Source: a virus. From it: a stretch of DNA of 20,095 nucleotides. Made by a program: the position numbers and the translations under genes. Positions 1,387-18,601 of this stretch are shown here, piece by piece (position 1 is the stretch's first letter; each line of letters starts with the position of its first letter). The stretch covers positions 1-20,095 of IMG/VR virus record IMGVR_UViG_3300032083_000232; one strand, 5' to 3'. The notes under the pieces were generated by a model. The model ran no database searches and was not told where the DNA came from. It saw nothing but the letters and a program-made list of their open reading frames with translations.

Positions 1387-1971
1387 ATGAATATATTAAC
1401 GTTAGATGTGGAGACGACTCATAAAACAAAGGAATCAGGTGGCACTACTGCTTTGCCTTATTTTAACAATAGGCTTGTATCTATCGGATATAAGTGGTTA
1501 GGAGAAGATGAGGTAGGCTACGACTTTATACACCACTCAGATGAGAGAGGGTTTGTAGATACAGATTGGTTTGATAAGATGCAGGGTACTTTGAATAGTG
1601 CTGATGTCATAGTAGGACAGAACTTTAAGTTTGATCTTACGTGGCTAAGAGCATGTGGCTTTACCTACGATGGTAGCATCTATGATACTATGGTGGCTGA
1701 GTACATCTTAGCTAAGGCACGTAGGTGGTCACTTAGTCTTGACTCTCTTGCAAAACGATATGGTGTTACACAAAAAGAAAAAGATTTGGTTGCACCTTAT
1801 CTAAAAGATGGTAAAACATTTTATGATATACCCTATGACATAGTAAAAGAATATGGTATAGCAGACGTAATTGCTACAGAAGAAGTGGCAGTAAAACAAC
1901 TTGAAGCCTTTGGCACAACATTTGGAGAACTATTTAATGACATTAGTACCGACACTCAAGCTTTCGCTTGA
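1387..1971 (+). CDS. 3'-5' proofreading exonuclease subunit of a split family-A DNA polymerase (DEDDy)
   Basis: A 194-residue stand-alone version of the proofreading exonuclease domain normally fused to the N-terminus of phage family-A DNA polymerases. Exo I is D7 and E9 (LDVET), Exo II is N79-x3-D83 (NFKFD), and Exo III is Y156-x3-D160 (YGIAD). All catalytic metal ligands of the DEDDy class are therefore present and the domain should be active. AAGGA at 1373-1377 is a good ribosome site for the ATG at 1387. The similarity to polymerases ends near residue 183. The last ~11 residues are read past the point where the polymerase resumes in the +1 frame, so they look like a frame-specific tail. 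The product presumably works in trans with the polymerase encoded immediately downstream. Confidence 0.88.
   Translation: MNILTLDVETTHKTKESGGTTALPYFNNRLVSIGYKWLGEDEVGYDFIHHSDERGFVDTDWFDKMQGTLNSADVIVGQNFKFDLTWLRACGFTYDGSIYDTMVAEYILAKARRWSLSLDSLAKRYGVTQKEKDLVAPYLKDGKTFYDIPYDIVKEYGIADVIATEEVAVKQLEAFGTTFGELFNDISTDTQAFA
1924..1929 (+). promoter_or_regulatory. Internal Shine-Dalgarno (GGAGAA) for the separate polymerase subunit
   Basis: GGAGAA lies seven bases before the ATG at 1937, inside the 3' end of the exonuclease gene. It decides the start of the polymerase gene in the +1 frame. The alternative upstream in-frame start is a TTG at 1901 with no comparable ribosome site. Confidence 0.65.
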
Positions 1972-3469
1972 AATGACAAACGTTCTTACTCGTATTGAGA
2001 TGAACGGACTTAAGATAAACTTGGATACCCTCGATGAAATTGAAAAGGAATATAATAAGGAACTATCCTATTTGGAAACAAAACTGCAATCGATGGCTAG
2101 ACAAGCTATGGGTGATACTCCTGTTAATCTATCTAGTCCAGATGATAGGAGTGTTCTTTTATATTCACGTAAAGTAAAAGACAAACCTCTCTGGTCGATG
2201 ACATTCAATCTGGGTCAGGAGATGAGGGGCAACACAATCAAACCTAAGCTACGTACACGTATGAAGAAGAATGATTTCATTCGTAACGTGAGGAACATGA
2301 CTGACATTGTCTACAAAACTGTAGGTCAACAATGTGCAGGTTGTCTAGGTCATGGCAAGGTCAGACCCGTCAATAAGAATGGAGAGCCAAGTAAAATACT
2401 CAGGATATGCAAGCCGTGTAAAGGTAAAGGCACTAGGTACACAGACACTAATGAGGTAGCAGGCTTTAAGATTGTACCTCGTAATCCAAAAGATACTGCA
2501 TCTGCAGGGTTTAAGACTGACAAAGTAACTCTTGAGGACAGATCAACAGAACTAAGTGGCGATGCCCGTGAGTTTTGTGTAGCCTACTCTAGATACAATG
2601 CTATTCGTACCTACCTATCTACCTTTGTTGAAGGCATGAAGAACAATGTTGATGACGATAACTTCATTCATCCTGAGTTCATGCAGTGTGTTACGGCTAC
2701 GGGTAGACTATCTAGTCGTAATCCTAACTTCCAAAACATGCCACGTGGTTCTACCTTTGCCATACGTAAGATAGTCGAAAGTAGATTTGATGGTGGCTAC
2801 ATACTTGAGGGTGACTACTCTCAGTTGGAGTTCAGGGTGGCAGGTTTCTTAGCCAAAGACCCACAAGCATATGATGATGTTCTCAAGGGAACTGACGTTC
2901 ACAACTACACTGCATCTATAATAGGGTGTTCAAGGCAGGATGCAAAGGCACACACGTTCAAACCTCTCTATGGTGGGGTAAGTGGTACTCCAGCACAACA
3001 AGCCTACTACACGGCTTTTAAAGAGAAGTATGAGCAGGTGACCGAATGGCACAAGGAATTAGAAAAGGAAGCAGTCAAGACTAAAGAGATCAAGTTACCA
3101 TCGGGTCGTGTCTATTGTTTCCCTGATGCTAAGTGGACTGATTGGGGGGCAGCCACGAACAGAACTGCTATCTGTAACTACCCCGTACAAGGATTTGCAA
3201 CTGCTGACTTGCTACCTATTGCCTTAGTTGAGCTAGACAAGGTGATGAGAAAATTAAGAATGGAGTCAGTCATATGCAACACAGTACATGATTCAATAGT
3301 ACTTGACGTACATCCTGATGAAAAAGATCAGTGTATCAAGGTATTATCTGAAGCCATGTTATCTATTTCTGATGGCTCGAAAGCTAGGTACGGCTTAGAA
3401 TACGACATGCCAATAGGAATAGAATTAAAAATAGGAAATAATTGGCTTGACTTGCATGAAATACAGTAG
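1937..3469 (+). CDS. DNA polymerase family A, polymerase subunit with DnaJ-type zinc-binding insertion
   Basis: A 510-residue DNA-directed DNA polymerase for phage genome replication, lacking its exonuclease domain, which is the preceding gene. Family-A motifs (numbered from this ATG): a conserved entry IEMNGLKI near 20-27; TATGRLSSRNPNFQN (254-268); motif A EGDYSQLE with metal-binding D293; motif B R333-x3-K337-x3-F341-x3-Y345-G; motif C VHDS with H451-D452. The position equivalent to E. coli Pol I 762 is Phe, followed by an unusual Lys. Between the entry region and the polymerase core is a partial DnaJ central domain: CAGCLGHG (C133, C136) and CKPCKGKG (C158, C161), probably binding one zinc ion. 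As I recall, this insertion marks HMO-2011-type marine phages. The gene overlaps the exonuclease gene by 35 nt in the +1 frame and has its own GGAGAA site. Assembly error or programmed frameshift are alternatives to a true split gene. Confidence 0.93.
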   Translation: MTLVPTLKLSLEMTNVLTRIEMNGLKINLDTLDEIEKEYNKELSYLETKLQSMARQAMGDTPVNLSSPDDRSVLLYSRKVKDKPLWSMTFNLGQEMRGNTIKPKLRTRMKKNDFIRNVRNMTDIVYKTVGQQCAGCLGHGKVRPVNKNGEPSKILRICKPCKGKGTRYTDTNEVAGFKIVPRNPKDTASAGFKTDKVTLEDRSTELSGDAREFCVAYSRYNAIRTYLSTFVEGMKNNVDDDNFIHPEFMQCVTATGRLSSRNPNFQNMPRGSTFAIRKIVESRFDGGYILEGDYSQLEFRVAGFLAKDPQAYDDVLKGTDVHNYTASIIGCSRQDAKAHTFKPLYGGVSGTPAQQAYYTAFKEKYEQVTEWHKELEKEAVKTKEIKLPSGRVYCFPDAKWTDWGAATNRTAICNYPVQGFATADLLPIALVELDKVMRKLRMESVICNTVHDSIVLDVHPDEKDQCIKVLSEAMLSISDGSKARYGLEYDMPIGIELKIGNNWLDLHEIQ

Positions 3470-3510: not shown

Positions 3511-4362
3511 ATGGAATCAAATGAAATGACAATTGGAAACGAAATGGATCAGTTAGTATCAGCTTTTAACGATGATGATACTGCTACGTTTATGGAACTA
3601 ACAGGACAAGCTAAGGCGACATCCAACGTTGGACTACCAAGATTGAACATTAACTACGACACGGAGACAGACGATGGTACTGCCTTAACACGTGGTTCGT
3701 GGAAGATGTTTGTAGATGGTGAGTTCATCTACGCTAAAGATGTGTTGATCAGACCTATCCTACGTACATTCGAGTGGAGTGTATATGATATGGAGCAGGG
3801 AACTTTCTCTTGCAAGTCAGTACAGAAGCCTACATTGGCAGGAGAATTTCCTGACTCATCAGCAGGCAATAAGTGTGGTAGATTATCAATGAAAGAAGAA
3901 GAGGTTCTTAAGGATGATGACCCACTCAAAGTAAAGTCACGTTCTGCAGTGTGTAACCAAGTTATATATGGTCAGATAAGTGGTGACTTCACTAAGGCAG
4001 ATGGCACAAAGGTAGATATAAAGGACAAGCCTTTCGTATCTTACTTCAAGCGATCAGGCTTTAGACCTATCAGAGATTTCATAGATGGCTTAACTAGACA
4101 GAAGAAGATCATGCAAAAGGTTGTTATTAAGTTAGCGACTAGCAGGGTCAAGTCAGGTTCAGTTGTTTACTATGTACCTGTTCCGACTCTCCATTCGGAA
4201 GTACAAGTCTCGGATACAGATAAGACATTGATGAAAGATTTCTCAGAGACTGTAAAGGCTCACAATGAGAACATTTTAATTCAGAACAGAGAAGCTTTGA
4301 AACTCATTTCTCCTAGTGAGGAACAAGACTTGTCGGCTGATTTCAATGTTAAATCTGCTTAA
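3511..4362 (+). CDS. Conserved phage protein of unknown function, candidate ssDNA-binding protein
   Basis: A 283-residue soluble protein with no signal peptide or membrane segment. The middle (roughly residues 45-235) alternates beta-like stretches such as SWKMFVDGEFIYAKDVLIRP and GSVVYYVPVPTLHSEV, and the C-terminal tail contains the acidic patch SPSEEQDLSADF. It sits between the polymerase and the recombination nuclease, where T7-like replication modules often carry the single-stranded DNA-binding protein. A beta-rich core with an acidic tail is consistent with that, but no diagnostic motif is visible. It has a good ribosome site (AAAGGAAA, 3498-3505) and the largest gap on the + strand in front of it (41 nt, AT-rich, no clear promoter), so it may be translated more strongly than its coupled neighbours. 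The gene is certain; its function is a guess from position. Confidence 0.7.
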   Translation: MESNEMTIGNEMDQLVSAFNDDDTATFMELTGQAKATSNVGLPRLNINYDTETDDGTALTRGSWKMFVDGEFIYAKDVLIRPILRTFEWSVYDMEQGTFSCKSVQKPTLAGEFPDSSAGNKCGRLSMKEEEVLKDDDPLKVKSRSAVCNQVIYGQISGDFTKADGTKVDIKDKPFVSYFKRSGFRPIRDFIDGLTRQKKIMQKVVIKLATSRVKSGSVVYYVPVPTLHSEVQVSDTDKTLMKDFSETVKAHNENILIQNREALKLISPSEEQDLSADFNVKSA

Positions 4363-5236
4363 AATCCAAGACTACATGCAAAAAGCAACTAGGGGGGAAG
4401 TCACGATCTCCCCTAGTGCTATTATGGACTTTGCAAAAGAATGTAAAGAGTCTGTAGAAAGACAGTTAAATAAAGAACGTAAGTTCAGTATCCGTATGTC
4501 AGGACTAGGTAGACCATTGTGTCAACAGTTACTAGATAGGCAGGGTATCAAAGAAGACATGGACTACAATGCTTTGTTTCGATTTATGTTTGGTGACTTA
4601 GTTGAATCAGTCATCGTACTTATCATGGAACAAGCAGACGTAGAGATAGTAGATAAACAAAAAGCAGTTAAGCTAGACATCGGTGGACATACAGTAACAG
4701 GTACACTTGATCTTATCTTGAGAGATGAGATGGGGATAGAGAAAGTTTGGGATGTCAAGTCTGCAAGTGAGTGGGCATTTAAGTTTAAGTACACGGGATT
4801 TGGTGGCTACGATAAGATAAAGGAAGATGATCCTTTTGGCTATATAATGCAAGGGCATCTGTATGGTGAAGCTACGGGTCTGCCGTTTGGTGGGTGGATC
4901 GTTGTAAACAAATCTAGTGGTGAGATTGCTATGGTGGAAGCACCTGATTGGCAAGAAGAAGACAGAAAAGAATATTTAAAAGATGCAGAGGTAAGAGTAA
5001 AAAGATTACTTGATCCTAACCCTGACTTTGTAAAACCATTTAAGTCTGAGTTTGAGACGTACAAAGTAAAAGGTGAAATCATAAGGACAGGTAACAAGAC
5101 CCTACCTAAGATATGTGGCATGTGTGGATACAGATCACACTGTTGGTCAAAGGCACAGTTACACGATAAGGTAATATCTAAAGCTAAGACACGACCTAAA
5201 GTGTGGTATGATGTTTTAAAAAAGAAAGAGATTTAA
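4346..5236 (+). CDS. Cas4/RecB-like PD-(D/E)XK exonuclease with predicted 4Fe-4S cluster
   Basis: A 296-residue nuclease that probably performs the DNA-end resection or host-DNA degradation role that gp6 exonuclease has in T7. Motifs in order: C59 (GRPLC), GDLVES with E87, GTLDLIL with D122, VWDVKSA with D136 and K138, QGHLYGEATG with the QxxxY pair Q169/Y173, then CGMCGYRSHC giving C257, C260 and C266 (CX2CX5C). One cysteine before the nuclease core plus CX2CX5C after it is the Fe-S cluster arrangement of Cas4 and AddB. There is no CRISPR array or other cas gene here, so this is a phage recombination or degradation enzyme. The start is uncertain: ATG 4346 overlaps the previous gene by 17 nt, ATG 4376 is the next option, and neither has a strong ribosome site. 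GTG 4316 is less likely. Confidence 0.85.
   Translation: MLNLLKIQDYMQKATRGEVTISPSAIMDFAKECKESVERQLNKERKFSIRMSGLGRPLCQQLLDRQGIKEDMDYNALFRFMFGDLVESVIVLIMEQADVEIVDKQKAVKLDIGGHTVTGTLDLILRDEMGIEKVWDVKSASEWAFKFKYTGFGGYDKIKEDDPFGYIMQGHLYGEATGLPFGGWIVVNKSSGEIAMVEAPDWQEEDRKEYLKDAEVRVKRLLDPNPDFVKPFKSEFETYKVKGEIIRTGNKTLPKICGMCGYRSHCWSKAQLHDKVISKAKTRPKVWYDVLKKKEI
4388..4417 (+). other. GC-rich inverted repeat / RNA hairpin at the start of the Cas4-like gene
   Basis: ACTAGGGG (4388-4395) pairs perfectly with CCCCTAGT (4410-4417) around a 14-nt loop, with partial extra pairing inside. It lies within the first codons of the nuclease gene, twelve bases after the alternative ATG at 4376. No T-run follows, so it is not a typical terminator. 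In mRNA it could affect initiation or processing; as DNA it is a short palindrome with a spacer. Function is inferred only. Confidence 0.5.
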
Positions 5237-5631
5237 TGTCGGCTATCTACCTACACAACTACCAAACTAAGTTGCTTGAGTTGAACGAGAACTTGTATCA
5301 TGTGTACATTGAGTCTCACAAAGGTATAGGTGGGGGTAGAGATATAACATTCCTTAGACAACACGACAGAGGTATACCTTTGACACTCAGAGATAACTTC
5401 TCTGAACACGGAACGTTAACTCCTGAGACAGAAGCTAGAGACATTGTCAAGGTAGAGAACGAGTTTCAAACAATTAACTATAGCCTTAACTATGGAAAAA
5501 TTTTATGTGTGCCGATATATCCCCTGCTAGACGAACTTATTACAATAGAAAAACAATCCCCGAAGATGGCAGGATATATAAACAAACGCCTAGAATCATT
5601 GAGTTGGAAAATCCAAACGGGGAGAACATAG
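5236..5631 (+). CDS. Hypothetical protein between two nuclease genes
   Basis: A 131-residue protein I do not recognise. It starts at an ATG overlapping the stop of the Cas4-like gene (TAATG) and ends with a stop overlapping the GTG start of endonuclease I (TAGTG), so it is embedded in a coupled string of genes. The N-terminal part carries KGIGGGRDITFLRQHDRG and the C-terminal part is mixed hydrophobic (ILCVPIYPLLDELITI). There is no signal peptide, no clear membrane span and no cysteine pairs. The last ~125 nt are also open in the endonuclease I frame. Its place between recombination nucleases suggests an accessory role in DNA processing, but the sequence does not show one. Confidence 0.65.
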   Translation: MSAIYLHNYQTKLLELNENLYHVYIESHKGIGGGRDITFLRQHDRGIPLTLRDNFSEHGTLTPETEARDIVKVENEFQTINYSLNYGKILCVPIYPLLDELITIEKQSPKMAGYINKRLESLSWKIQTGRT

Positions 5632-6005
5632 TGGCTAAACAAAATGCAGGATATCGATCTAAGTTTGAGTTAGCATTGGCTAAGAAACTTATTGATAACA
5701 AAATAAAATTTGAGTACGAGAAACACAAGATAACATTCGTACCTAAGATACGTACCTACACTCCTGACTTTTACATTCCTGCTACGGGTATATACATTGA
5801 AGCTAAGGGTGAGTTTGATAAAGCAGACAGAGTTAAGATGGCTTTGATTAAAGAACAACACAAGAAGTTAGATATACGTATGGTGTTTATGAACGCTAGA
5901 AATAAAATCTACAAAGGAAGTAAGACTACCTATGCTGATTGGTGTCTCAAGCACAACTACAGATGGGCAGAAGGATCAATACCTATGGAGTGGCTAAAGA
6001 AATGA
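5631..6005 (+). CDS. Endonuclease I, Holliday-junction resolvase (T7 gp3 family)
   Basis: A 124-residue resolvase that cleaves four-way and branched DNA and helps break down host DNA and debranch replicated phage DNA before packaging. It aligns by eye with T7 gp3 along nearly its whole length: KIKFEYEKHKI, YTPDFYIP, GIYIEAKG, LIKEQHKKLDIRMVF, KIYKGSKTTYADWCLKHN and IPMEWLKK all have clear counterparts. The PD-(D/E)XK catalytic set E13, D46, E57 and K59 corresponds to T7 E20, D55, E65 and K67. The chosen start is GTG 5631, overlapping the previous stop (TAGTG), with GGGGAGAA ending at 5626. T7 gp3 is 149 residues with a similar N-terminal lead. An in-frame ATG at 5505 would add 42 residues and cannot be excluded. 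A small TTGGA/TCCAA hairpin lies at 5604-5616, just upstream. Confidence 0.93.
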   Translation: MAKQNAGYRSKFELALAKKLIDNKIKFEYEKHKITFVPKIRTYTPDFYIPATGIYIEAKGEFDKADRVKMALIKEQHKKLDIRMVFMNARNKIYKGSKTTYADWCLKHNYRWAEGSIPMEWLKK

Positions 6006-6340
6006 AAAAGAAAGATATGAATACAATGATGTCATTGGAAAAAGATAAGTACTATGTCATTATATCTGAACTGCCAGACGATCAGTTTCATCTGGTTGCC
6101 TACGATACAACAGGTAAAAAGTACAAGACCTTTGAAGATCACACGGTTGCATCAATCATGCACGAGGGTGTCATGGCTTTGCTACGTAGACGGGGCGATG
6201 AAGTGTTTCGTTGTGGGGAAGCTGAGATAGAGTTTAACTTCTCAGCCAAAGAACTTCAGATAGAGTACCAAGATGAAACAGGAGAAAAGCTTGACTTACC
6301 TGAAAACGTAGTTAAAATAGATTTTGGTAAAGAACAGTAG
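6002..6340 (+). CDS. Small hypothetical protein
   Basis: A 112-residue acidic soluble protein I do not recognise. The start is ATG 6002, overlapping the endonuclease I stop (ATGA), with GGAG at 5987-5990 upstream. A further in-frame TTG at 5939 lies inside endonuclease I and is less likely. The body contains KYYVIISELPDDQFHLVAYD and a C-terminal FNFSAKELQIEYQDETGEK, which reads as a small alpha/beta domain. There are no membrane segments and only one cysteine (RCGEAE). It is coupled both upstream (ATGA) and downstream (TAGTG to the DUF3310 gene), so it is made with the replication enzymes. Confidence 0.7.
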   Translation: MKKKDMNTMMSLEKDKYYVIISELPDDQFHLVAYDTTGKKYKTFEDHTVASIMHEGVMALLRRRGDEVFRCGEAEIEFNFSAKELQIEYQDETGEKLDLPENVVKIDFGKEQ

Positions 6341-6591
6341 TGAGACATATAGAGTATATGATGAAGAGATTAGAAGAAGAAGACATGGTTAATAGTCCTG
6401 CCCACTACAACAAAGCAGGCATCGAGACTATTGACATGATAGAGTCTGTCACAGGTGATGGATTTGAAGCGTATCTTCAGGGCAACATTCTTAAATATCT
6501 GTGTAGATATAAGTACAAGAATGGTGTAGAAGATTTAGAGAAAGCAAAATGGTATTTAAACAGATTAATTAAGACAATAGGAGAAGACTAA
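6340..6591 (+). CDS. DUF3310 family protein
   Basis: An 83-residue protein matching the DUF3310 (SaV-like) family, common in phage replication modules and sometimes labelled a nucleotide kinase without solid proof. Family hallmarks are VNSPAHYNKAGIETIDMIES near the N-terminus, then EAYLQGNILKYLCRYKYK and NGVEDLEKAKWYLNRLI, which together form nearly the whole domain. The GTG at 6340 overlaps the previous stop (TAGTG). ATG 6358 or ATG 6385 (immediately before VNSPAHYN) are alternative starts, because the ribosome site for the GTG is weak. It sits just ahead of the ribonucleotide reductase, which agrees with a nucleotide-related role but does not establish it. Confidence 0.85.
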   Translation: MRHIEYMMKRLEEEDMVNSPAHYNKAGIETIDMIESVTGDGFEAYLQGNILKYLCRYKYKNGVEDLEKAKWYLNRLIKTIGED

Positions 6592-6592
6592 G

Positions 6593-8521
6593 ATGGCATC
6601 GAATATGTTACCAACCTCATATCAAGAGTTTATACATAAGTCTAGGTACGCTAGATGGATGGAAGAAGAGGGAAGAAGAGAGAATTGGGGTGAGACAGTC
6701 AGCAGATATGTAAACTTTATGGCTGATACGTTGATGGAGAAACACAACTACAAGATAGATAAAGTTGATAAAGAAATGATGGAAGACTACATTACTAGTC
6801 TGAGTGTAATGCCATCTATGAGAGCAATGATGACTGCAGGTGAAGCACTCAAGAGAGATAATACTTGTGGCTACAACTGTAGCTACCTGCCCGTAGACAG
6901 TCCAAGATCATTCGATGAAGCTATGTACATACTTATGTGTGGCACAGGTGTAGGTTTCTCTGTAGAAAGAGAGAACGTAGACAAGCTACCTATCATTAGT
7001 GAGAACATGCAGGAGTCTGAAGTTGTTATTAAGGTGGAAGACAGTAAGGCAGGATGGGCAAAAGCTTATCGTGAGTTAGTTGCGTTGCTTTATTCAGGAA
7101 TGATACCGTCATGGGATGTCTCCAAAGTAAGACCATCAGGTGCAAGATTAAAAGTTATGGGTGGTCGAGCATCAGGTGCTGATCCCCTTGTTAACTTATT
7201 TAAGTTTACTGTAGAGAAATTCAAGAGTGCAACAGGTAGAAAGTTATTTCCTGTTGAGTGTCACGATATCATGTGTAAGGTTGGTGAGGTTGTTGTAGTA
7301 GGTGGCGTTAGACGATCTGCTTTGATCAGCCTATCTAATCTAAACGATGATCAAATGGCACACGCTAAGACAGGTCAATGGTGGGAAAGTCAAGGTCAAA
7401 GAGCATTGGCTAACAACTCTGTAGCCTACAAGGGCAAGCCTAGTATGGAAACGTACATGAGAGAATGGTTAGCTTTGTATGAATCTAAGTCAGGTGAAAG
7501 AGGTATGTTTAACAGACAGGCTGCCGATGAGCAGGTAGCTAAGAGTGGCAGAAGACAGACAGGCTACATGTGGGGAACTAATCCTTGTTCAGAGATCATA
7601 CTTAGACCCTATCAGTTCTGTAATTTATCTGAAGTTGTCGTAAGAGAGAACGATGATCTTTCAGCCTTGAGATCAAAGGTACGGATTGCTACCATGCTAG
7701 GTACATTCCAATCAACTCTTACAGATTTAAAGTATCTACGTAAGATATGGAAAACAAACACAGAAGAAGAAAGATTGTTAGGTGTGTCATTGACAGGTAT
7801 CATGGATCATCCTGTGTTAGCTAGAATGACTGACTCTAAGATATGGTTACAAGAGATGAAGCAGGTAGCTATCGATACAAACAGAGAGTATGCAGAGAAG
7901 ATAGGAATACCTAGAAGTACTGCAATTACTTGTGTAAAGCCAAGTGGCACTGTGTCTCAGCTAACTGATTCTGCATCAGGTATCCATGCTAGACACAATC
8001 CGTTTTACATCAGAACTGTACGTGGCGATAACAAAGACCCACTCACACAGTTTATGAAAGAAGAGGGTATACCGTTTGAACCTGATATCACAAAACCTGA
8101 TAGTGTTACGGTCTTTTCTTTTCCTATGAAATCTCCTAGTGGTGCTATCACTAGAACTGAGATGAGTGCTATAGAACAACTAGAACTATGGAAACTCTAT
8201 GCACTTAATTGGTGCGAACACAAACCATCTGTAACTATTTCTGTAAAGGAAGAGGAGTGGATGGAAGTAGGTTCGTGGTTGTATGATAACTTTGATATAG
8301 CTTCGGGTGTATCATTCTTACCATTCTCTGACCACACGTACCAACAAGCTCCTTATCAGGATATAGAAGCTGATGACTATCTAGAATGGAATGGTCGTGT
8401 ACCATCTGCTTTAGATTGGACTAAATTCTCTAACTATGAAAAGGAAGATAATACGAGTGGTTCTCGTGAGTTGGCTTGTACTGCAGATGCCTGCGAAGTC
8501 GTAGACTTGAGTTCAAGCTAA
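6593..8521 (+). CDS. nrdJ: Adenosylcobalamin-dependent (class II) ribonucleoside-triphosphate reductase
   Basis: A 642-residue monomeric class II ribonucleotide reductase that makes dNTPs from ribonucleotides using a B12-derived radical, supplying precursors for phage replication. The N-terminal redox cysteine is C96 in YNCSYLPVD. The active-site block is NPCSEI with C332 and E334, followed by C343 in FCNLSEV, matching Lactobacillus RTPR C408, E410 and C419. The C-terminal reducing pair is C629-x4-C634 (ACTADAC), the counterpart of RTPR C731/C736. The conserved CVKPSGTVSQL segment (447-457) is also present. Length and arrangement fit the short monomeric RTPR type rather than the longer dimeric class II enzymes. 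The ATG is two bases after the DUF3310 stop, and the stop overlaps the next start (TAATG). The enzyme needs adenosylcobalamin, so the host must make or import B12. Confidence 0.95.
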   Translation: MASNMLPTSYQEFIHKSRYARWMEEEGRRENWGETVSRYVNFMADTLMEKHNYKIDKVDKEMMEDYITSLSVMPSMRAMMTAGEALKRDNTCGYNCSYLPVDSPRSFDEAMYILMCGTGVGFSVERENVDKLPIISENMQESEVVIKVEDSKAGWAKAYRELVALLYSGMIPSWDVSKVRPSGARLKVMGGRASGADPLVNLFKFTVEKFKSATGRKLFPVECHDIMCKVGEVVVVGGVRRSALISLSNLNDDQMAHAKTGQWWESQGQRALANNSVAYKGKPSMETYMREWLALYESKSGERGMFNRQAADEQVAKSGRRQTGYMWGTNPCSEIILRPYQFCNLSEVVVRENDDLSALRSKVRIATMLGTFQSTLTDLKYLRKIWKTNTEEERLLGVSLTGIMDHPVLARMTDSKIWLQEMKQVAIDTNREYAEKIGIPRSTAITCVKPSGTVSQLTDSASGIHARHNPFYIRTVRGDNKDPLTQFMKEEGIPFEPDITKPDSVTVFSFPMKSPSGAITRTEMSAIEQLELWKLYALNWCEHKPSVTISVKEEEWMEVGSWLYDNFDIASGVSFLPFSDHTYQQAPYQDIEADDYLEWNGRVPSALDWTKFSNYEKEDNTSGSRELACTADACEVVDLSSS

Positions 8522-9039
8522 TGATAGAGATACCGATCAGCGAAGATTACATGCGTCATGCGAGGGAAAAAGCTTCTGCTGTAGGCATACTGCAGGGAAG
8601 TATTACAGGTGGCACTAGTAACGTAGTAGGTGCGATAGGCGAGGTAATCGTGGCTGATATCATTGGAGCAACTGAAGCAAATACATATAACTATGATTTA
8701 GTAAAAGATGGGAATCGAATCGACGTTAAGACTAAACGTTGTAATACTAAGCCACAGCCTAATTATGATTGCTCAGTTGCATCACATGGTACTAAGCAAG
8801 ACTGTGACAGTTATGTGTTCGTGAGGATACTGACTGATCTCAGTAAGGCTTGGATACTAGGTAGCATTAGTAAACAAGAATACTATGCTGAAGCTACCCG
8901 ATACAAGAAAGGTCAAGTTGACCCGAGCAACGGTTTTACATTCAGAACCGATTGTTATAATTTACCGATAAGCAAGTTAGAGCCGATCAATGAAATCAAA
9001 AGTGAAAGCGAAACTATTCTCACTAGAAGCGTTTCTTAA
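8521..9039 (+). CDS. Putative PD-(D/E)XK endonuclease
   Basis: A 172-residue protein with the look of a small restriction-type nuclease fold. GAIGEVIVADIIG supplies a helix with E41, YDLVKDG supplies D59, and RIDVKTKR gives D68-x-K70, the expected order E...D...(D/E)xK. The second half, SYVFVRILTDLSKAWILGSI, fits the following strand and helix. The start is ATG 8521, overlapping the reductase stop (TAATG). An upstream in-frame start inside the reductase gene is not needed. It is probably another host-DNA degrading or DNA-processing nuclease, the fourth nuclease gene in this block besides the proofreading exonuclease. The fold is inferred from motifs only, and no close relative is recognised. 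Confidence 0.7.
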   Translation: MIEIPISEDYMRHAREKASAVGILQGSITGGTSNVVGAIGEVIVADIIGATEANTYNYDLVKDGNRIDVKTKRCNTKPQPNYDCSVASHGTKQDCDSYVFVRILTDLSKAWILGSISKQEYYAEATRYKKGQVDPSNGFTFRTDCYNLPISKLEPINEIKSESETILTRSVS

Positions 9040-9211: not shown

Positions 9212-9333
9212 TGGAGTGGTGGGAAGCGTGGCTAGTCGTAGCTATAACTATCAACACCACTATCAATACAATTGTTTTCTTTAAGGGTCGTAAGATATCG
9301 AGACAGAGGGATAAGCCTAGCTCATCATCTTAA
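9211..9333 (+). CDS. 40-residue single-pass membrane micro-protein, last gene of the + strand block
   Basis: GTG 9211 opens a 40-codon frame ending at TAA 9331-9333. The start overlaps the previous stop (TAGTG) and has AGGTAGG at 9196-9202 as a ribosome site. The protein has a Trp-rich start (MEWWEAW), one hydrophobic helix (LVVAITINTTINTIVFF, about residues 8-24), then a basic Lys/Arg tail (KGRKISRQRDK) and a Ser-rich end. The charge pattern predicts the tail stays in the cytoplasm. A holin-like or membrane-targeting role is possible but not shown. Its last 17 nt overlap the end of the convergent - strand gene. This frame fills what would otherwise be a roughly 100-nt gap between the two blocks. 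Confidence 0.55.
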   Translation: MEWWEAWLVVAITINTTINTIVFFKGRKISRQRDKPSSSS

Positions 9334-9622
9334 AGTCTTTACCTGATATTTTACCGTCTTTGTTTTTATCTAACATAGCCTGCTTACCATGTAGCTTTCC
9401 CCCATGAGCCATACCCATGCTAAATCTTTTCTTTTCAGTCATGCTACCCATTGGGTTCATCATGCCTGCTTGACCTGCAGATGACTTTCTATTGTCCTCA
9501 GCAAGTCCACCCATTTGCATTTTCTTTTTCTTAGCCATGCCACCGTACATCATTGGCTTTCTTGGGGTAGCACCACCACCGTACATCATGCCCTTACGTT
9601 GACCGTTGTTATACATCTTCAT
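9317..9622 (-). CDS. Met/Gly-rich protein with C-terminal EF-hand-like loop
   Basis: A 101-residue basic, low-complexity protein. The first ~75 residues repeat Met-Gly-Gly motifs: MMYGGG (12-17), MMYGG (24-28), MQMGGL and MGMAHGG, separated by Lys-rich stretches such as AKKKK. The C-terminus holds DKNKDGKISGKD, a 12-residue EF-hand/dockerin-type calcium loop with D at positions 1, 5 and 12 and N at 3. Similar MYGG/Lys-rich small proteins occur in marine phage structural blocks, but I know no assigned function. The start has a strong ribosome site (AAGGAG, eight bases upstream) that overlaps the stop of the 1538-residue gene, so it is the last cistron of the virion block and is probably abundant. 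A virion decoration or scaffold role is inferred only. Confidence 0.75.
   Translation of the reverse strand: MKMYNNGQRKGMMYGGGATPRKPMMYGGMAKKKKMQMGGLAEDNRKSSAGQAGMMNPMGSMTEKKRFSMGMAHGGKLHGKQAMLDKNKDGKISGKDFKMMS
9540..9589 (-). repeat. Two 14-bp direct repeats encoding the MMYGG motif
   Basis: CCACCGTACATCAT occurs at 9540-9553 and again at 9576-9589, a 36-bp spacing. Both copies encode MMYGG(G) in the - strand Met/Gly-rich gene. The nucleotide identity suggests a recent internal duplication rather than only convergent codon choice. Confidence 0.6.
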
Positions 9623-9634
9623 TAGTTTGTCTCC

Positions 9635-12600
9635 TTAAGTTAAATCGTTAGCGTATTCATACTCTTTGTATTTTATTTTCCAACCTTCAGGTAAGTCAAT
9701 TTCTCTCTCGGGAGCAACTAGGTTAAGCATCTTGTCTTGATTGGACAGAGCTAAAGTCATTGCGTTAAAAAACTGTACTTCCTTTTGTCTAGACAGAGGT
9801 TGACCTGTCTTTACTATCTCTAAGAATAATTGACCTGCTTCTGGGTTTTCAATCAGAGCCTTAAACATGTTGTGACCTTTCATACGAAACTGTTGTAGTA
9901 TAGCTTCTGTTCCCACATATCTTGCAGATATAACTCCTCTGTTTATAGAATAGAATCTACTAATGTAACTTTCCACAGAAAAGTGTCTTGGAACTCCTGT
10001 TATGTTAGATGCTTTTTCTGCTATGTCTGTTTGTTCAGATACAAAATTTATCATGGAATCAAAAGTCTTTAATCTTTTTTCTCCTATAAGGTTTTGTACC
10101 ATAGCTCTTTTAGTTTTATCGTTGAATCCAGTAATAGATTTTAAAGCTTCCATGTCCATTGTCACTTCGGGTATCAAGTTGCCTTTGTAGTCTAATGTGT
10201 TTTTACCAGTAGTTTTAAATACGTTTTTATTCAAATCTTCTAGGTATACATCTCTAACCAAATCATCTATTCTGTCTCTAGATACTTTACCACCAAAGAA
10301 TGTAAACAATCCATCTTTTGCTCTGTTTAACTGAGGTCCATTCTCAAACATCTTCTGAGCTAAACTTACTGTGGATGTACTCTCTGATGTTAAAGTTTGC
10401 AGAACCCTAGCAACTTGTTTTCTTTGGTCTAGATATTCTGTAGCAGGCTTTACATTTTCTTTAGCCAACTTAGTCATGCGTGTGTCAAGGTTATCTTGTC
10501 CTTTTTTCCATAGCTTGTCTCCAACTGATGCTGGATTATAGGAAAACAAATCTTTTTCTATCTTGTTAACATCTATGAGACTTCTAAGTCTTCCGTCTTC
10601 TCTACCTACAGTAAATGCTTTTTCTATGTTTCTCATTTTAGTTATGTACTCTTTACTGTTTAACTGTCCTTTGTTTGCAACATCAAGTATATAGTCTGAT
10701 AATTTTAATTCCATAAGAGCTTTTAGAGTTTTACCGTTTTGAGTTCCGAGATCAATTGTGTAGTTTTTACCTATCCTTGTTCCTACCAACTCATAAAAAC
10801 TATCTTGAAACTCAGGCAACTCAGAAGTTTTCATGTTTGCAATTTTATCAAAGTCAAACCAACTGTTAGGATTGTTGTCTAAAGTTATACCTGTAGGTCT
10901 AGTGCTACTTGGTGATACTTTGTTTCTTCCTTTAAATGATTTGTTCCAATTTAGTTTGTTATCGAAGAATCTGTTCATGTAGGTTTGGTGCATACCATTT
11001 GCGTTACTTAGCAAATCTCTAACAGCAACTCTTTCTTTGCCTATCTCTACAAACATATCTCCAATTAGTTGTTCGTTTGGCTGTCCAAAGTTTACTTTGA
11101 ATTGTGTAAACATTGTGTCAGCTTCATCTTTTAACTGGCTATACTGGTAAGCTATGCCACCTGCTTCTGTGTTAGTTCCTGACTCTTGTAATCTTTTATA
11201 CTTTGAATTAAGATTAGAAAAAGCCGATTTCATTTCTTTTAGTTGTTCAAAGGATATAGGTATTGAGTCTATTGTTTTACCTCTACTCTTTGCCATTTGG
11301 TTTAGAACATCTACAACTTGTAGATTCATAGGCAGGTAAGATTTTATCATAGATGGATCAGCGTTTTCAAGAATACTACCAATGAACTCACTTATGTTTT
11401 CATATTGACCACCTTGATTGACAGTGTCAAAATGTTTTTGTACAGATATTCCCGCTGCATCGTTTAATCCCTTAAACAAATTGGCTCTCTTAGATGAACC
11501 TATGTTTGCACCTGCAATGTTTTTAAATACATCTGTCTCGTTTGTTTTACCTGTGATGTCTAAAAACTTCTCTAAGATACCTATGCCTTCTACCTTAGCA
11601 TTAGTACCTATAAGTTCTCCTGTTTCAGTTACAAATCTAGAGCTATCTAGCTTTTTATACTCTGCACTAACTTCTGCATTTGCTTTATTTCGTACGTTTT
11701 CTGAAAAAGTAAGAAACAAATCACCAAAGTTATCGTGTTCTACTACAGGATTATCATCTTTCTTTAAGCTTTTGTTTAATTTTGTCTTAGCTTCCTTTAA
11801 CAACTTGGGTCTGTTTAATGACTTTGCTTTATCTGCAAGTGCCCTATCCACAGCATCACTTATAGTTTGATTTTCTGCAGATATATTTACTTCATTCTCC
11901 CAGTTAACTTTGTTTATATTTAAACCATAAGTAGTGTTAAGCTTGGTGCTTATGTCGTCTGCACTGCTAACACCATCGTCTAGTATACCTGTAGTTCCAT
12001 AGATAGCATCAGTTATCTCATTCTTTTGAGCTTCTTTCAATTGCTCTATAGTTTCAGATATCTTTTCATTACGCTTTACACCAAAGTTGTAAACTTTATC
12101 TATTGTGTTTTGAAATTTTATTAGGGCAGGCGTGTCATTGTCTCTACGTATATTTGATATGTCCAAAGAAGCACTAGATAATTCATTTAACAAGCTACTT
12201 TTTAGGGTTTGTACTTTTTGCAAATCTTCTATTGTTTGACCAAAAGATGCTAAACTTTTTTCAGATATGTTTAAGCGTGATCCCTCTTCAATAGTCTGTA
12301 AAATAGATATTCCTGAAAGTTTTGCAAAGCTCATTTTAACTAACTCTATAGGTACACCTGCTGTAATAAGTTCTTGTTGTAACTCATCCATATACTTTAT
12401 ACGTGTCTCTAAGGATTTTTTAAATTCAGGAGAAAAAGTATTTACTCGTTTAGCAAGTTCTTTTGCTATATCTAGGTCTTGAGCCTTTTTACCTGCGTTA
12501 GTAAAACTATATGCTTTATCTAAAAGGTTGGACATAATTCTGTTGTTAGACCCTGTTTGGTATATTATACCTGAAAACAAACCGACTGCTTCAAAGAGAC

Positions 12601-14251
12601 GAGAATCTCCTTCTGCTTCTTGTGCTAGTTGTCCAAAGCCTGCTGACCCAATGATCATGTACTTATTGCCCTGTGAAGCATCTCGTAAGAATTGTGGCAA
12701 GTTAGATTCTAGGACTACGGTACGTAAATTTTCAGTAGATTGATTTAGAGAAGCATTAAGAGATGCAAGTTGTTTTTCATCATCTAAAGTTCTTTTACCT
12801 TTAATACGTAATGCTTCTTCAAAGTTGTCTCTTTGTTTAAGTATATTCTTTCTTGTAGCAAGTGCAGCTGTTACTTCAGGTCTTTTAAACACAGTTTTAG
12901 CTGCATCATCTATTTGTAATCCTCTTACTAATCTACCACCGTTTAATATCGAATCAATACGCTGATAGGCTTTCCCTATACCAAACGGAGCATCTCCTAA
13001 GTTAGCAGTAAATTTACCAAAGCCTATTTGTTTGTTTCGTAAAGTTTGAAAATCTCTCAACCCGTTTTCTGGCGTTAGGTTCTCTCCTCCGGGTTTAAGT
13101 CTTTCTGTTGCTAGGTACTTTTTGTATTTTCTAAATTCTCTTTTGCCCAATTGGGTTACTATCTTTGTTGCCACCTTACTAGGTATCAGTATCTCAGCAC
13201 CGACTGCGGCTAGTCTCTGAGGAGTAGAAGTAAACATGGTAGCTATAAGTTCGGCTGTTCCTATGTCTATCTCAATACCCCTTGCAGCATATCCATCTTG
13301 AAGTATGTTTGCTTGCTTGTCCATAAACACATCGTAGAAATCATTTCGCTTCTTTGAATCAGTTATACCTGCTGTTGAATCTGTTAGAATTTCAAATCCT
13401 TCTCCTATTAGATACCCCCCTGTTTCAAGTCCAAACCTAACACCACCTCTGGCATAACCAAGTATGTTTTCCATATTCTTAAACTTGTTATCCATACGTT
13501 CAGTTATTATACCAAGTCTTTGTCTAGAATTAAGACCTGCTTTAATTAATATCTTATTGTATTGTTTAGCAAGATGAAGATTAAAACCTGTCTCATCAAA
13601 GTTTGTACCAAATGTTTTATCGAGAGTTACTCCTATCTTTTGTCCACCAATAAACGGCATCCACTCAGGAAATCTACCTTGACCTTTTTCATCTTCTGCT
13701 TTAAAGGGCGTGGTTTTTAACAGAGGGTTAATTATCTGCCCTATTGACGGAGGTGAATAGTCTTTAGGCTCTTTTATAATATTTGCAATTTGAGTTTCGT
13801 AGGGAATATCTTCGTATGCTATAGCTCCACTTTTCTTTTTGTAAGCATACTGTAAAGCACCCATGTAATTCATGGTTTTAATTTTATCATCGTAGGTAGA
13901 ACCTTCTTGAAATTTAGAATAGCCATCACCTTGAGTATTCTTTGTTCTGAATCCCACCATATTGTTAACTATATCAATCATTACGGGATTTGTTTTTTGA
14001 AATATACTTTCAGTCTTAACATATGGCTGTAGTTTAGCTTTGTCCACAAACACTTCTCTCTTAGATACAGTTTCTGATCCCGGAACAATATCTTCTACGA
14101 ATGTTTTTTTAACATCAGTAACAGCTTCAGGTCTAACTATACCTACTTTCTCAGCTACTTTCCTAGCTGCACCTGCTGTATCATCAAAAATATCATACCC
14201 TCTTTTTGGCTGTACGATATTATCTGTATCTTCTGTTATTTCTTCAGCCAT
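9635..14251 (-). CDS. Giant virion protein (1538 aa), candidate internal virion / DNA-ejection protein
   Basis: At 1538 residues this is the largest gene in the window. It is mostly helical and polar with long Lys/Glu/Asn-rich stretches and very few cysteines. Gly/hydrophobic amphipathic segments lie at about 262-290 (YARGGVRFGLETGGYLIGEG), 330-368 and 530-566 (YMIIGSAGFGQLA, AVGLFSGIIYQTG), which could insert in or lie on a membrane. No lytic transglycosylase, peptidase or tail-fibre motif is evident. It follows the 1075-residue gene by nine bases holding AGGA as ribosome site. Size, position and composition recall T7 gp16, which forms part of the ejection channel, but that is analogy and not detected homology. 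A large tail or RNA-polymerase-like protein was considered and no supporting motif was seen. Confidence 0.7.
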   Translation of the reverse strand: MAEEITEDTDNIVQPKRGYDIFDDTAGAARKVAEKVGIVRPEAVTDVKKTFVEDIVPGSETVSKREVFVDKAKLQPYVKTESIFQKTNPVMIDIVNNMVGFRTKNTQGDGYSKFQEGSTYDDKIKTMNYMGALQYAYKKKSGAIAYEDIPYETQIANIIKEPKDYSPPSIGQIINPLLKTTPFKAEDEKGQGRFPEWMPFIGGQKIGVTLDKTFGTNFDETGFNLHLAKQYNKILIKAGLNSRQRLGIITERMDNKFKNMENILGYARGGVRFGLETGGYLIGEGFEILTDSTAGITDSKKRNDFYDVFMDKQANILQDGYAARGIEIDIGTAELIATMFTSTPQRLAAVGAEILIPSKVATKIVTQLGKREFRKYKKYLATERLKPGGENLTPENGLRDFQTLRNKQIGFGKFTANLGDAPFGIGKAYQRIDSILNGGRLVRGLQIDDAAKTVFKRPEVTAALATRKNILKQRDNFEEALRIKGKRTLDDEKQLASLNASLNQSTENLRTVVLESNLPQFLRDASQGNKYMIIGSAGFGQLAQEAEGDSRLFEAVGLFSGIIYQTGSNNRIMSNLLDKAYSFTNAGKKAQDLDIAKELAKRVNTFSPEFKKSLETRIKYMDELQQELITAGVPIELVKMSFAKLSGISILQTIEEGSRLNISEKSLASFGQTIEDLQKVQTLKSSLLNELSSASLDISNIRRDNDTPALIKFQNTIDKVYNFGVKRNEKISETIEQLKEAQKNEITDAIYGTTGILDDGVSSADDISTKLNTTYGLNINKVNWENEVNISAENQTISDAVDRALADKAKSLNRPKLLKEAKTKLNKSLKKDDNPVVEHDNFGDLFLTFSENVRNKANAEVSAEYKKLDSSRFVTETGELIGTNAKVEGIGILEKFLDITGKTNETDVFKNIAGANIGSSKRANLFKGLNDAAGISVQKHFDTVNQGGQYENISEFIGSILENADPSMIKSYLPMNLQVVDVLNQMAKSRGKTIDSIPISFEQLKEMKSAFSNLNSKYKRLQESGTNTEAGGIAYQYSQLKDEADTMFTQFKVNFGQPNEQLIGDMFVEIGKERVAVRDLLSNANGMHQTYMNRFFDNKLNWNKSFKGRNKVSPSSTRPTGITLDNNPNSWFDFDKIANMKTSELPEFQDSFYELVGTRIGKNYTIDLGTQNGKTLKALMELKLSDYILDVANKGQLNSKEYITKMRNIEKAFTVGREDGRLRSLIDVNKIEKDLFSYNPASVGDKLWKKGQDNLDTRMTKLAKENVKPATEYLDQRKQVARVLQTLTSESTSTVSLAQKMFENGPQLNRAKDGLFTFFGGKVSRDRIDDLVRDVYLEDLNKNVFKTTGKNTLDYKGNLIPEVTMDMEALKSITGFNDKTKRAMVQNLIGEKRLKTFDSMINFVSEQTDIAEKASNITGVPRHFSVESYISRFYSINRGVISARYVGTEAILQQFRMKGHNMFKALIENPEAGQLFLEIVKTGQPLSRQKEVQFFNAMTLALSNQDKMLNLVAPEREIDLPEGWKIKYKEYEYANDLT

Positions 14252-14260
14252 AAACTATCC

Positions 14261-17200
14261 TTATTTATTGTTTTTGATTGCTTCCATAAGCTTTTTAGTT
14301 TGCTCTGTCTCTTCTTTGTCTACTTTAGCCTTAGTATTGTTGTCACCATCGCTTTTAGTATTCAGTAACTTGTTCATTATAAAAGATCGTCTTGCCTTTA
14401 CTCCCCTTAGATTACCTAAGTTACCTACACCTAAGTATGGTGCTTTGTTACCTTCAAACAATAGTTCTCTTGCTTTTATTGCAGAGTATTGAACCTTTGT
14501 ATCCTTGTTTAACAAGGCATTGTTGTACTCGTAGATAGAAGTCATCATCTTTCTAGCTTCTTGTAAGGTAGCTTTCTCTAAGCTTGCTTCAGTGAAGAAC
14601 CCAAAGTTCAACGCACTTAGTATGTTTTGAACGTCTTGGTCAGATATGGTTCTACCACCTGTGCCACCTTGAATTGCTGCAGCTAGCTGGTATGCCAACA
14701 TATATTTGTGATACTGTCTTATAGCTAACTTTCTTATAACGTCTTTGCCTAACGCACCTTTTGAATAAGCATCACGCATGGCTTTAGGCATACTCTTTAC
14801 AAATCCAGAAGCTTCACCTATGCCTGCTCTTTGCATAAAGTCTGTGCCTTTTCCTAAGTTGCCTTTCATAATTTCTTTTATTTCAGCAAGGGCAGCTTTA
14901 TTCTTTGCTTTAGCTTGTTGTTCTGCAGGATCATTTGAATTTATGGAATCGTAAACATCGTCTTGATCAATAAGTTGACTGTTAACGTCTTCAACACTAC
15001 TAGATACAATGTCAATAACTTTTTCACCTTTGAGAAACCTATAAGCTCTCATGGCTGTTTCTTTCATACCCGAAAGCTTTACAATAAGTTCACCTTGTTG
15101 AGTGTTTATATTAATATCTCTTCCGTTTATCTGGTATGTATCTTCCATAGAATCTATAGTTATGATAGCATTGAAAGCAGATGTTGCTTTACCTTGAATT
15201 TCCTGCCTAACTTTTATGTTACCTGTGTCTCCACCGTGCAGTTGTTCAATAGTTCTATCAACCATGTCCTGATTTACATCAGTAAATCCCATTATTAATT
15301 TTCTTGCTTCAGTAAAATTGTTTGCGGCGAGAGTAGTAAAAGCATTTAGTATATACTTTCTATCATCTCCTATAATGTTACCTGCAGGTGCTTGGCTAGG
15401 ATAAGGATGCAGAATACTAAAAAATCCGTCTAGTAAAGATGCGTTTCTTTCTACCCCATTTATAGTTACTTTCTTACCTATCATAACTCGACTATCTAAA
15501 TCTTTTATAAATGTAAGTAGTCCTTGCTCATCATCAAGGACACGAACTTTTTTACCTTCAGCATTTTCAACGAACATATCTGTGCCATCAGAATTTTTCT
15601 TTGTCTTTATCAAACTTGCAATAGTAGCTGTTATTTGATCAGCGTCGCTGGACTTCACATATTGAGGTAGTTTCTTTGTAACTATATCTTTAAACTCACT
15701 TGGGTAGTTTACTCCTATCATAGCAGTTCCACCGTCTGTAGTTTTGCCTTTTACTACAAGAATGTTTTCACCTTGATTTACAGGAGTACTTGCCATTAAA
15801 TCTTTTGCCGCTTCATCACCTAACATGCCCGCTGCATTTAAAACGATCTGATCAAAGTTTTTTATCTGAGCTATTCCAGTATTCCCTACTAAACTTTTAA
15901 TTTTTCTAATAGCATCTGATGGGTTTTTTGGTAAGTTTTTAAAACTGGCTACCCCATCCCCTTTGTTAAAATCGTCTAAAAAATATTCTCTAACTTCGCC
16001 TGCAATATTTGACATAGCTTGAGAATACAAACTATCATTAGAATTTATTTGATTTACTAGTGTGCTATCTTGTTGTAATGCACGATTAAAATTCATTAAA
16101 TTTCCATAGCCAGCTAATCTTCTGTCCATAGTTATTTGTATATTTTTCTTGCCAAACCCATTAGCCTTATTTTCTGATGATTTTAAATTTATAACACCAT
16201 AAGTATTACCATCAGTTGCTGAGTTGGATGCTTTGGCTTGGCTACTTGTGTTAAAATCCTTTGAAGTAGTTACGCCGTCTTTAGTTGTAACTATCTTTTT
16301 AATATCAACAGTATCCCCAAGTCCTTCATACACCTCTTCTTTTGTCATACCAAACTTAGCAATAGCCATACCTGTTTCAACCTTACCATCTTTTCTTACA
16401 GTTATCAGAAAATCTTCGGTTGTTGTAGCTGAAGGAGTGCTTGTTTTAACTTCTTGAAGTTTACCTTGCTTTAGTAAACCAGTTTCATCAAATGTATTAG
16501 TTTGTTGCTGTACTGCTTGTGATGGATCACTAGTCACTTTGCCATTTTTATCAAAGAAAGTAGTAAGCTCTTGATTTGCAGCTTTGCTCATATCTTGTAT
16601 TTGCTCAACTACTTTTTCTTCGCCACCAATATTTTTAATCTTGTCAAACTTAACTGCTTCACTAGGATTGGTAGTAATGTCGCCGTTACTATCATAATAT
16701 CTTACTGTTGTTAAAATTTCAGAAGCTTTTTGTGTTTTTACCTTATTGGTCGGAATACCTGTAGATACAACTCTCGTTCCTACTTTTTTAATTGTTCTAG
16801 TGTGGGTGGATTTTGTAGTAGTATCACTTGAGTTAATAGGAACAAATCTATTATTAGAATCTAGATACCCGTCTTCTTGTGTTTCTATTTCTTGTTTGTC
16901 AGGTTCTGTTATAAGTTCAACTTTTCCAAAAGAATTTTCAGTGTCTGATTTAGTAACTTGTCTTGTGTGGGTTGCATCCCAAGTGTCTGTATCTTTTCTA
17001 GGTACAAAAACTCCTTTTACTACTTTTCCTTGTTGTTGAAAAGTATTTTTTATATTCTGGTTAGGTTTATACCACGAATGAAAATATGGTTTATTATCTG
17101 CAGGACTTCTATATCCTATTGGAACACCTAATTTTTCAACCTTTGTGCTGTCCACTCCTGCTTTCGTTTTATTCAAAATATCAAATTGTTTTTTTGTTAT

Positions 17201-17488
17201 AGGTGGAGAGTTTTTATCATATGGGTTTTCAAAAAGATCAAAAAACTCAGCTTCTTCTTTTGGAAATTGATTTATAGTTTTAGAATTTCCTATTGAAAAA
17301 CCATATTTTGCATCCCCATCTTTTAAGTTTTCATTGTCACCTAAAGCTCTTATACCTGTAGCTCCCATGACCCAATTCGTTACTTTACTATCTGCCCTAG
17401 CTTTTGCTCTTGCTTGATCTGCTTCTCGTTTTCTTTTAGAACCTACAGATAAAGTATATAATGCTAATAAAGGTAAATTAAGTGCCAT
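14261..17488 (-). CDS. Large virion protein (1075 aa) with N-terminal degenerate repeats, candidate internal virion protein
   Basis: A 1075-residue protein with a short hydrophobic N-terminus (LNLPLLALYTLSV) followed by a basic Arg/Lys/Ala helix. This is not a convincing cleavable signal. Residues ~206-380 hold four degenerate units around an Asp/Asn-Gly turn, 47-56 residues apart: YLDSNN (208), YYDSNGDITTNPSEAV (264), FFDKNGKVTSDPSQAV (311) and VRKDGKVETGMAIAKF (364). The rest is helical, with Gln/Ala-rich parts near 900-960. The start ATG overlaps the stop of the 188-residue gene (TAATG), so the two are translationally coupled. By order and size it parallels T7 gp15, the middle protein of the ejection machine. 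That role is inferred; the sequence itself shows a large structural-type protein without enzyme motifs. Confidence 0.7.
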   Translation of the reverse strand: MALNLPLLALYTLSVGSKRKREADQARAKARADSKVTNWVMGATGIRALGDNENLKDGDAKYGFSIGNSKTINQFPKEEAEFFDLFENPYDKNSPPITKKQFDILNKTKAGVDSTKVEKLGVPIGYRSPADNKPYFHSWYKPNQNIKNTFQQQGKVVKGVFVPRKDTDTWDATHTRQVTKSDTENSFGKVELITEPDKQEIETQEDGYLDSNNRFVPINSSDTTTKSTHTRTIKKVGTRVVSTGIPTNKVKTQKASEILTTVRYYDSNGDITTNPSEAVKFDKIKNIGGEEKVVEQIQDMSKAANQELTTFFDKNGKVTSDPSQAVQQQTNTFDETGLLKQGKLQEVKTSTPSATTTEDFLITVRKDGKVETGMAIAKFGMTKEEVYEGLGDTVDIKKIVTTKDGVTTSKDFNTSSQAKASNSATDGNTYGVINLKSSENKANGFGKKNIQITMDRRLAGYGNLMNFNRALQQDSTLVNQINSNDSLYSQAMSNIAGEVREYFLDDFNKGDGVASFKNLPKNPSDAIRKIKSLVGNTGIAQIKNFDQIVLNAAGMLGDEAAKDLMASTPVNQGENILVVKGKTTDGGTAMIGVNYPSEFKDIVTKKLPQYVKSSDADQITATIASLIKTKKNSDGTDMFVENAEGKKVRVLDDEQGLLTFIKDLDSRVMIGKKVTINGVERNASLLDGFFSILHPYPSQAPAGNIIGDDRKYILNAFTTLAANNFTEARKLIMGFTDVNQDMVDRTIEQLHGGDTGNIKVRQEIQGKATSAFNAIITIDSMEDTYQINGRDININTQQGELIVKLSGMKETAMRAYRFLKGEKVIDIVSSSVEDVNSQLIDQDDVYDSINSNDPAEQQAKAKNKAALAEIKEIMKGNLGKGTDFMQRAGIGEASGFVKSMPKAMRDAYSKGALGKDVIRKLAIRQYHKYMLAYQLAAAIQGGTGGRTISDQDVQNILSALNFGFFTEASLEKATLQEARKMMTSIYEYNNALLNKDTKVQYSAIKARELLFEGNKAPYLGVGNLGNLRGVKARRSFIMNKLLNTKSDGDNNTKAKVDKEETEQTKKLMEAIKNNK
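16349..16873 (-). repeat. Protein-level degenerate repeats in the 1075-aa virion protein
   Basis: Four units with an aromatic-Asp-x-Asn/Gly turn followed by Thr/Asp-Pro-Ser-x-Ala-Val are spaced about 50 residues apart. The middle two (around residues 259-280 and 308-327) are clearly alike; the outer two are weaker. The similarity is in protein, not in long DNA identity. Confidence 0.5.
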
Positions 17489-18054: not shown

Positions 18055-18055
18055 G

Positions 18056-18589: not shown

Positions 18590-18601
18590 ATTATTATACT
18601 C

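Follow-up and report, generated by a model that had tools for sequence, protein, structure and literature searches.

Family-A proofreading is normally pictured as a handover of the primer end from one domain to another, the two being tethered within a single chain. In the 20,095-base IMG/VR virus contig analyzed here (the window, to whose positions all coordinates below refer), the exonuclease and polymerase parts of such an enzyme lie in two different reading frames. The question is whether the locus encodes two proteins or a single chain that is interrupted only in appearance.

The Two Genes and the Position of the Break

The features of the locus are the following.

1387-1971, plus strand: predicted 3′-5′ exonuclease gene (DEDDy, PF01612), 194 aa
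1924-1929, plus strand: GGAGAA, Shine-Dalgarno-like (SD) sequence within the exonuclease gene, 7 nt 5′ of the ATG at 1937
1937-1939, plus strand: ATG, start codon of the polymerase gene
1937-3469, plus strand: predicted family-A polymerase gene (PF00476), 510 aa, in the +1 frame relative to the exonuclease ORF
1937-1971, plus strand: overlap of the two genes, 35 nt, exonuclease stop codon included
2333-2431, plus strand: DnaJ-like zinc region of the polymerase half, with two CXXCXGXG motifs (Cys 133, 136, 158, and 161)

The initial annotation had described a +1 polymerase frame with its own ATG at 1937 and GGAGAA 7 nt before it, and these coordinates are confirmed; the frame is open from 1895 and reaches its stop at 3469. 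It had also read the exonuclease frame as ending at 1971 with the DEDDy set intact, and both halves as complete in their catalytic residues, which agrees with the residues given below.

The exonuclease ORF matches Pfam PF01612 (E = 9e-12). Its DEDDy residues (D7, E9, D83, Y156, and D160) are all present and are invariant at the covered positions of 115 non-redundant split exonucleases, so the product can be classed, as a prediction, with the DEDDy 3′-5′ exonucleases. Its AlphaFold2 model has a pLDDT of 91.5 and Pol I as the best PDB match; the last ~14 residues, the majority of them encoded by the overlap, are predicted poorly.

The polymerase ORF matches PF00476 (E = 2e-50) and, judged from its sequence, has motifs A, B, and C and the catalytic residues of a family-A polymerase, that is, D293 in motif A, R333, K337, and F341 in the O-helix, and H451-D452 in motif C. 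D293, R333, H451, and D452 are invariant in the 130 split loci surveyed below, and K337 and F341 in a 39-row alignment. The zinc motifs of the window polymerase are CAGCLGHG and CKPCKGKG, and all four of their Cys residues are invariant across the 130 split loci. The AlphaFold2 model (pLDDT 88.4) matches the large fragments of Pol I. Each half was modeled as a single chain, and each alone gives a confident and complete fold.

In a profile alignment to the 605-aa Klenow fragment, the exonuclease ends at chain position ~196 and the polymerase begins at ~207, and Klenow alignments place the break at about Pol I residues 519-530. By these alignments its position is that of the known Klenow exonuclease/polymerase domain boundary, as expected from the earlier claim of a break in the interdomain linker. 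The E. coli Klenow fragment has been separated into its domains in the laboratory at this same boundary.

The window is part of a phage genome, with a helicase and an endonuclease I present. Other genes recognized in it are the following.

4316-5236, plus strand: Cas4-like exonuclease
5505-6005, plus strand: phage endonuclease I
6340-6591, plus strand: DUF3310
6593-8521, plus strand: B12-dependent ribonucleotide reductase

These four are located within a plus-strand block (4316-9039). Positions 9317-19948 are occupied by a block of large genes on the minus strand (1538, 1075, and 448 aa among them), which probably encode virion proteins; five of these genes gave no match to PHROG at E 0.001. 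Between the helicase and the exonuclease, a small plus-strand ORF (1013-1384) carries HNH-type Cys/His motifs, with a Pfam HNH match below the cut-off (E = 0.03). Many split loci, and the fused loci L124, L125, and L313, have a relative of it at this place or close by, as if the helicase-exonuclease gap were an insertion site.

Distribution of the Split among Relatives

An in-frame reading of the 80 closest IMG/VR loci was followed by further scans; 130 split loci, counted without redundancy, and 62 fused loci were classified. Among the closest 80, the same +1 arrangement was found wherever both halves were present, and the junction of the window recurs at 100% protein identity in two more IMG/VR contigs (L002 and L003). 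The split is universal in the clade (130/130 non-redundant IMG/VR relatives, drawn from many separate metagenomes), and a reversal was never seen. The two genes overlap in 111 of these loci and are 0.2-1.5 kb apart in the other 19; the polymerase is in the +1 frame in 115 of the 130. Fused genes are confined to other lineages, namely the HTVC033P lineage and the HMO-2011/CRP lineage. The checks proposed in the initial annotation thus gave the same split in these 130 relatives, and uninterrupted single frames in sister lineages only and in no member of the split clade.

A single-base sequencing or assembly indel, which had been offered as the alternative, or a recently broken gene would give an identical picture in one genome, but the identical junctions of L002 and L003, the split in all loci with two halves, its presence in 130 non-redundant relatives from many metagenomes, and the purifying selection on both halves (see below) exclude the indel and leave such explanations a negligible probability.

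Wherever a split-clade locus extends 2.2 kb or more upstream of the polymerase, the exonuclease is present there (136 of 136 loci, a count that is not deduplicated), and each locus without an exonuclease is cut by a contig end. Seven long contigs (39-56 kb) have exactly one PF00476 and one PF01612 match each, and thus no second intact family-A enzyme is seen there. A megablast search of the window against named phages gave no match. In a scan of genome contigs, no split relative was found among the loci with a readable exonuclease, and the close matches were fused HMO/CRP types. The phages with a split polymerase form a large, uncultured, and mostly marine group.

Separated Genes and Insertions at the Junction

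In the sub-clade L231-L255, other genes separate the exonuclease from the polymerase, over a distance of 0.2-1.5 kb. Three different relative frames are represented among the separated loci, so in those 19 loci the polymerase must initiate independently. It has its own ATG there, SD-matched in 15 of the 19, and in 11 of the 13 separated loci inspected the SD and ATG at the end of the exonuclease start an inserted small ORF. The inserted ORFs occur in variable sets, vary freely in size, and are positioned exactly at the fission junction; several are helix-turn-helix-like (GcrA, YlxM/UPF0122, and HTH_38). The extra genes were acquired later, in a single sub-clade; gene cassettes use the junction as a landing site.

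An interruption of the gene by a group I intron or an intein, excised to leave a single chain, is another conceivable reading, as group I introns are frequent in phage DNA polymerase genes and an intron has been considered for the OM43 phages MEP401/402 (PMC10580990). The window genes, however, overlap and leave no intervening sequence to remove, which refutes an intron or intein for the overlapping members, and the inserts of the separated sub-clade carry small ORFs and vary freely in size. No intron was found between the halves, and no Rfam family reached threshold when the junction was searched for introns and structured RNAs. The probability of this reading is therefore minimal.

Initiation of the Polymerase

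At the junction, 111 of the 111 overlapping loci have a start codon preceded by an SD match of 4 nt or more, as compared with 7 of the 62 fused relatives at the equivalent place. Across the split clade, the polymerase starts with ATG, GTG, or TTG. The overlap ranges from 4 to 68 nt among relatives, with a shifting position of the exonuclease stop, and the spacing between the start and the conserved TLKL motif also varies, yet a start with an SD persists. A third arrangement is seen in L256, where the genes overlap at ATGA in a different frame. According to the initial annotation, the ribosome site would be a coincidence if the junction were due to an indel; its retention with the start codon in every overlapping locus speaks against coincidence and, together with the clade-wide split, supports the natural two-protein enzyme that had been proposed.

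Programmed +1 ribosomal frameshifting of the prfB kind would fuse both frames into one chain. The +1 frame of the polymerase in 115 of the 130 split loci is in its favor, and a shift near 1937 would yield a plausible linker. On the contrary, it does not predict a conserved SD and start codon, the position and context of the exonuclease stop differ from clade to clade, no conserved slippery site or stop context was found, and folding of the junction gave no unusual fold or stable RNA structure (z -0.98). The separated loci and the ATGA member L256 could not use such a mechanism at all. The kept SD and start, the moving stop, the separated loci, and L256 do not fit a frameshift signal but do fit ordinary overlapping genes. 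The sequence comparison argues strongly against programmed frameshifting, which appears very improbable, and points with good support to two separately started genes that are probably translationally coupled where they overlap. A small fused fraction may arise through ribosomal slippage in the overlapping members.

Phylogeny and Selection

In the polymerase tree, the split and fused states are separated by one change (SH-aLRT 99). The split clade adjoins the fused lineage of pelagiphage HTVC033P, with the HMO-2011 lineage also beside it, in a tree from a quick search whose deepest fork is weak (support 74). The split-clade polymerases are now only ~60% identical to one another. The exonuclease tree was resolved less well, and one split clade was not rejected (p-AU 0.55).

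The deepest split sub-clade (L160-L172) has an exonuclease ~40% identical to that of the window, as against 61% for the polymerase, and its exonuclease may have been swapped or have changed faster. This divergence raised the idea of a second origin or of such a swap; the exonuclease tree did not reject a single clade.

The dN/dS values in the window's own group, 0.13 for the exonuclease and 0.085 for the polymerase, indicate purifying selection on both halves. The overlap, which is a short region, gives 1.8 when read as exonuclease and 0.23 when read as polymerase; these values tentatively suggest a constraint mainly as the polymerase N-terminus. At matched polymerase identity (>60%), exonuclease identity is nearly equal in the overlapping and fused clades and slightly lower in the separated sub-clade. 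As the exonuclease keeps the pace of the fused enzymes, the fission left it under constraint.

Comparison with Known Polymerases

HMO-2011, CRP-1/2/3, and pelagiphage HTVC033P have homologous exonuclease and polymerase domains, with polymerases 41-49% identical to that of the window. Two CXXCXGXG motifs, which form a partial DnaJ domain between exonuclease and polymerase, mark the HMO-2011-type polymerases (PMC9038755); the split polymerase has the same two motifs and is likewise located after a DnaB-like helicase. The HMO-2011-type enzymes have been published as single chains with these zinc motifs (PMC9038755, PMC6918029) and measure 678-705 aa, with exonuclease, DnaJ region, and polymerase together, whereas two genes are found here. 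All HMO-2011-type isolates reported so far are fused; the initial annotation had given exonuclease and polymerase of HMO-2011 as one chain, and the HMO-2011/CRP lineage was indeed found fused. Where family-A polymerases have a proofreading domain, it belongs to the polymerase chain; in all members examined here it is in a separate ORF, and the polymerase starts independently of it. Among marine HMO-2011-type polymerases, a survey retained only DNAPs >540 aa (PMC9038755), so it would probably miss the split polymerases, which are 507-516 aa across the clade.

Phage polymerases in two ORFs are known, with breaks of other kinds. The family-A polymerase of the marine OM43 phages MEP401 and MEP402 is in two ORFs (PMC10580990), but there the interruption falls within the polymerase domain, a small ORF separates the two parts, and an intron was considered. 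In the T4-like Aeromonas phages 44RR and 25, gp43A and gp43B are two polypeptides that must assemble (PMC2988022); this replicative polymerase is of family B, with an intercistronic split or a homing endonuclease link, and occurs in few phages. The family-A DNA polymerase gamma of cyanophage Mic1 has two ORFs with a 298-bp intron between them (PMC7156551), and was rejected as the same split as its intron breaks the polymerase motifs. The annotation of Vibrio phage Saratov-12 (L087, 1440-3533) divides an ICP2-like family-A polymerase into two ORFs at a point within the polymerase region.

The "DNA polymerase exonuclease subunit" families (phrog_403 and phrog_192) hinted at a known split, but in the papers located the name refers to something else: phage PLY has a full-size DNA polymerase (24 hundred bases) encoded separately as well, and the CN1A protein is epsilon-like. 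A search of the open-access literature gave no earlier report of this split. All close known relatives are fused; the natural split at the exonuclease/polymerase boundary is what is new here, two-ORF phage polymerases being already known.

A Probable Proofreading Polymerase in Two Chains

It is highly probable that one fission produced two overlapping, separately initiated genes whose products together constitute the replicative proofreading polymerase. The ancestor would be a single-chain HMO-2011-type family-A DNA polymerase whose gene was divided once, where exonuclease and polymerase meet. The exonuclease would be translated first, and the SD and start in its last ~15 codons would then initiate a separate polymerase chain, most likely through translational coupling to the exonuclease. 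Both products would act jointly at the fork, the polymerase half carrying the DnaJ-like zinc region, and the exonuclease would edit the primer end of the polymerase in trans. The production of two separate proteins is well supported by the conserved gene structure; their physical association and the trans-editing are inferred.

Two proteins that form no complex, the exonuclease being an independent nuclease and the polymerase having no dedicated proofreading, are rather unlikely. Such a condition would agree with the separated sub-clade, where as much as 1.5 kb of other genes can stand between the halves, and with the poorly predicted exonuclease tail. Against it stands an exonuclease that is upstream in the same order in each adequately covered locus, is constrained as much as in fused enzymes, and has invariant DEDDy residues.

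If the two products do act jointly, the exonuclease could also have been freed as a dosable subunit of a dissociable complex, with a ratio set by translational coupling and with fidelity and strand displacement that could be tuned in the course of infection, which is suggested here only tentatively. In Pol III alpha-epsilon (DnaE-DnaQ), a separate 3′-5′ exonuclease subunit serves the polymerase; Pol III alpha is of family C and DnaQ is DEDDh. The split enzyme resembles it in the separate exonuclease and differs from it in these two respects. The dosable subunit, if true, would make the split enzyme an independently evolved family-A counterpart of Pol III alpha-epsilon.

Automatic annotation may give the exonuclease and polymerase halves separate names. 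With a natural untethered lineage, stable since the ancestor of the clade, the need for a tether and editing in trans become directly testable.
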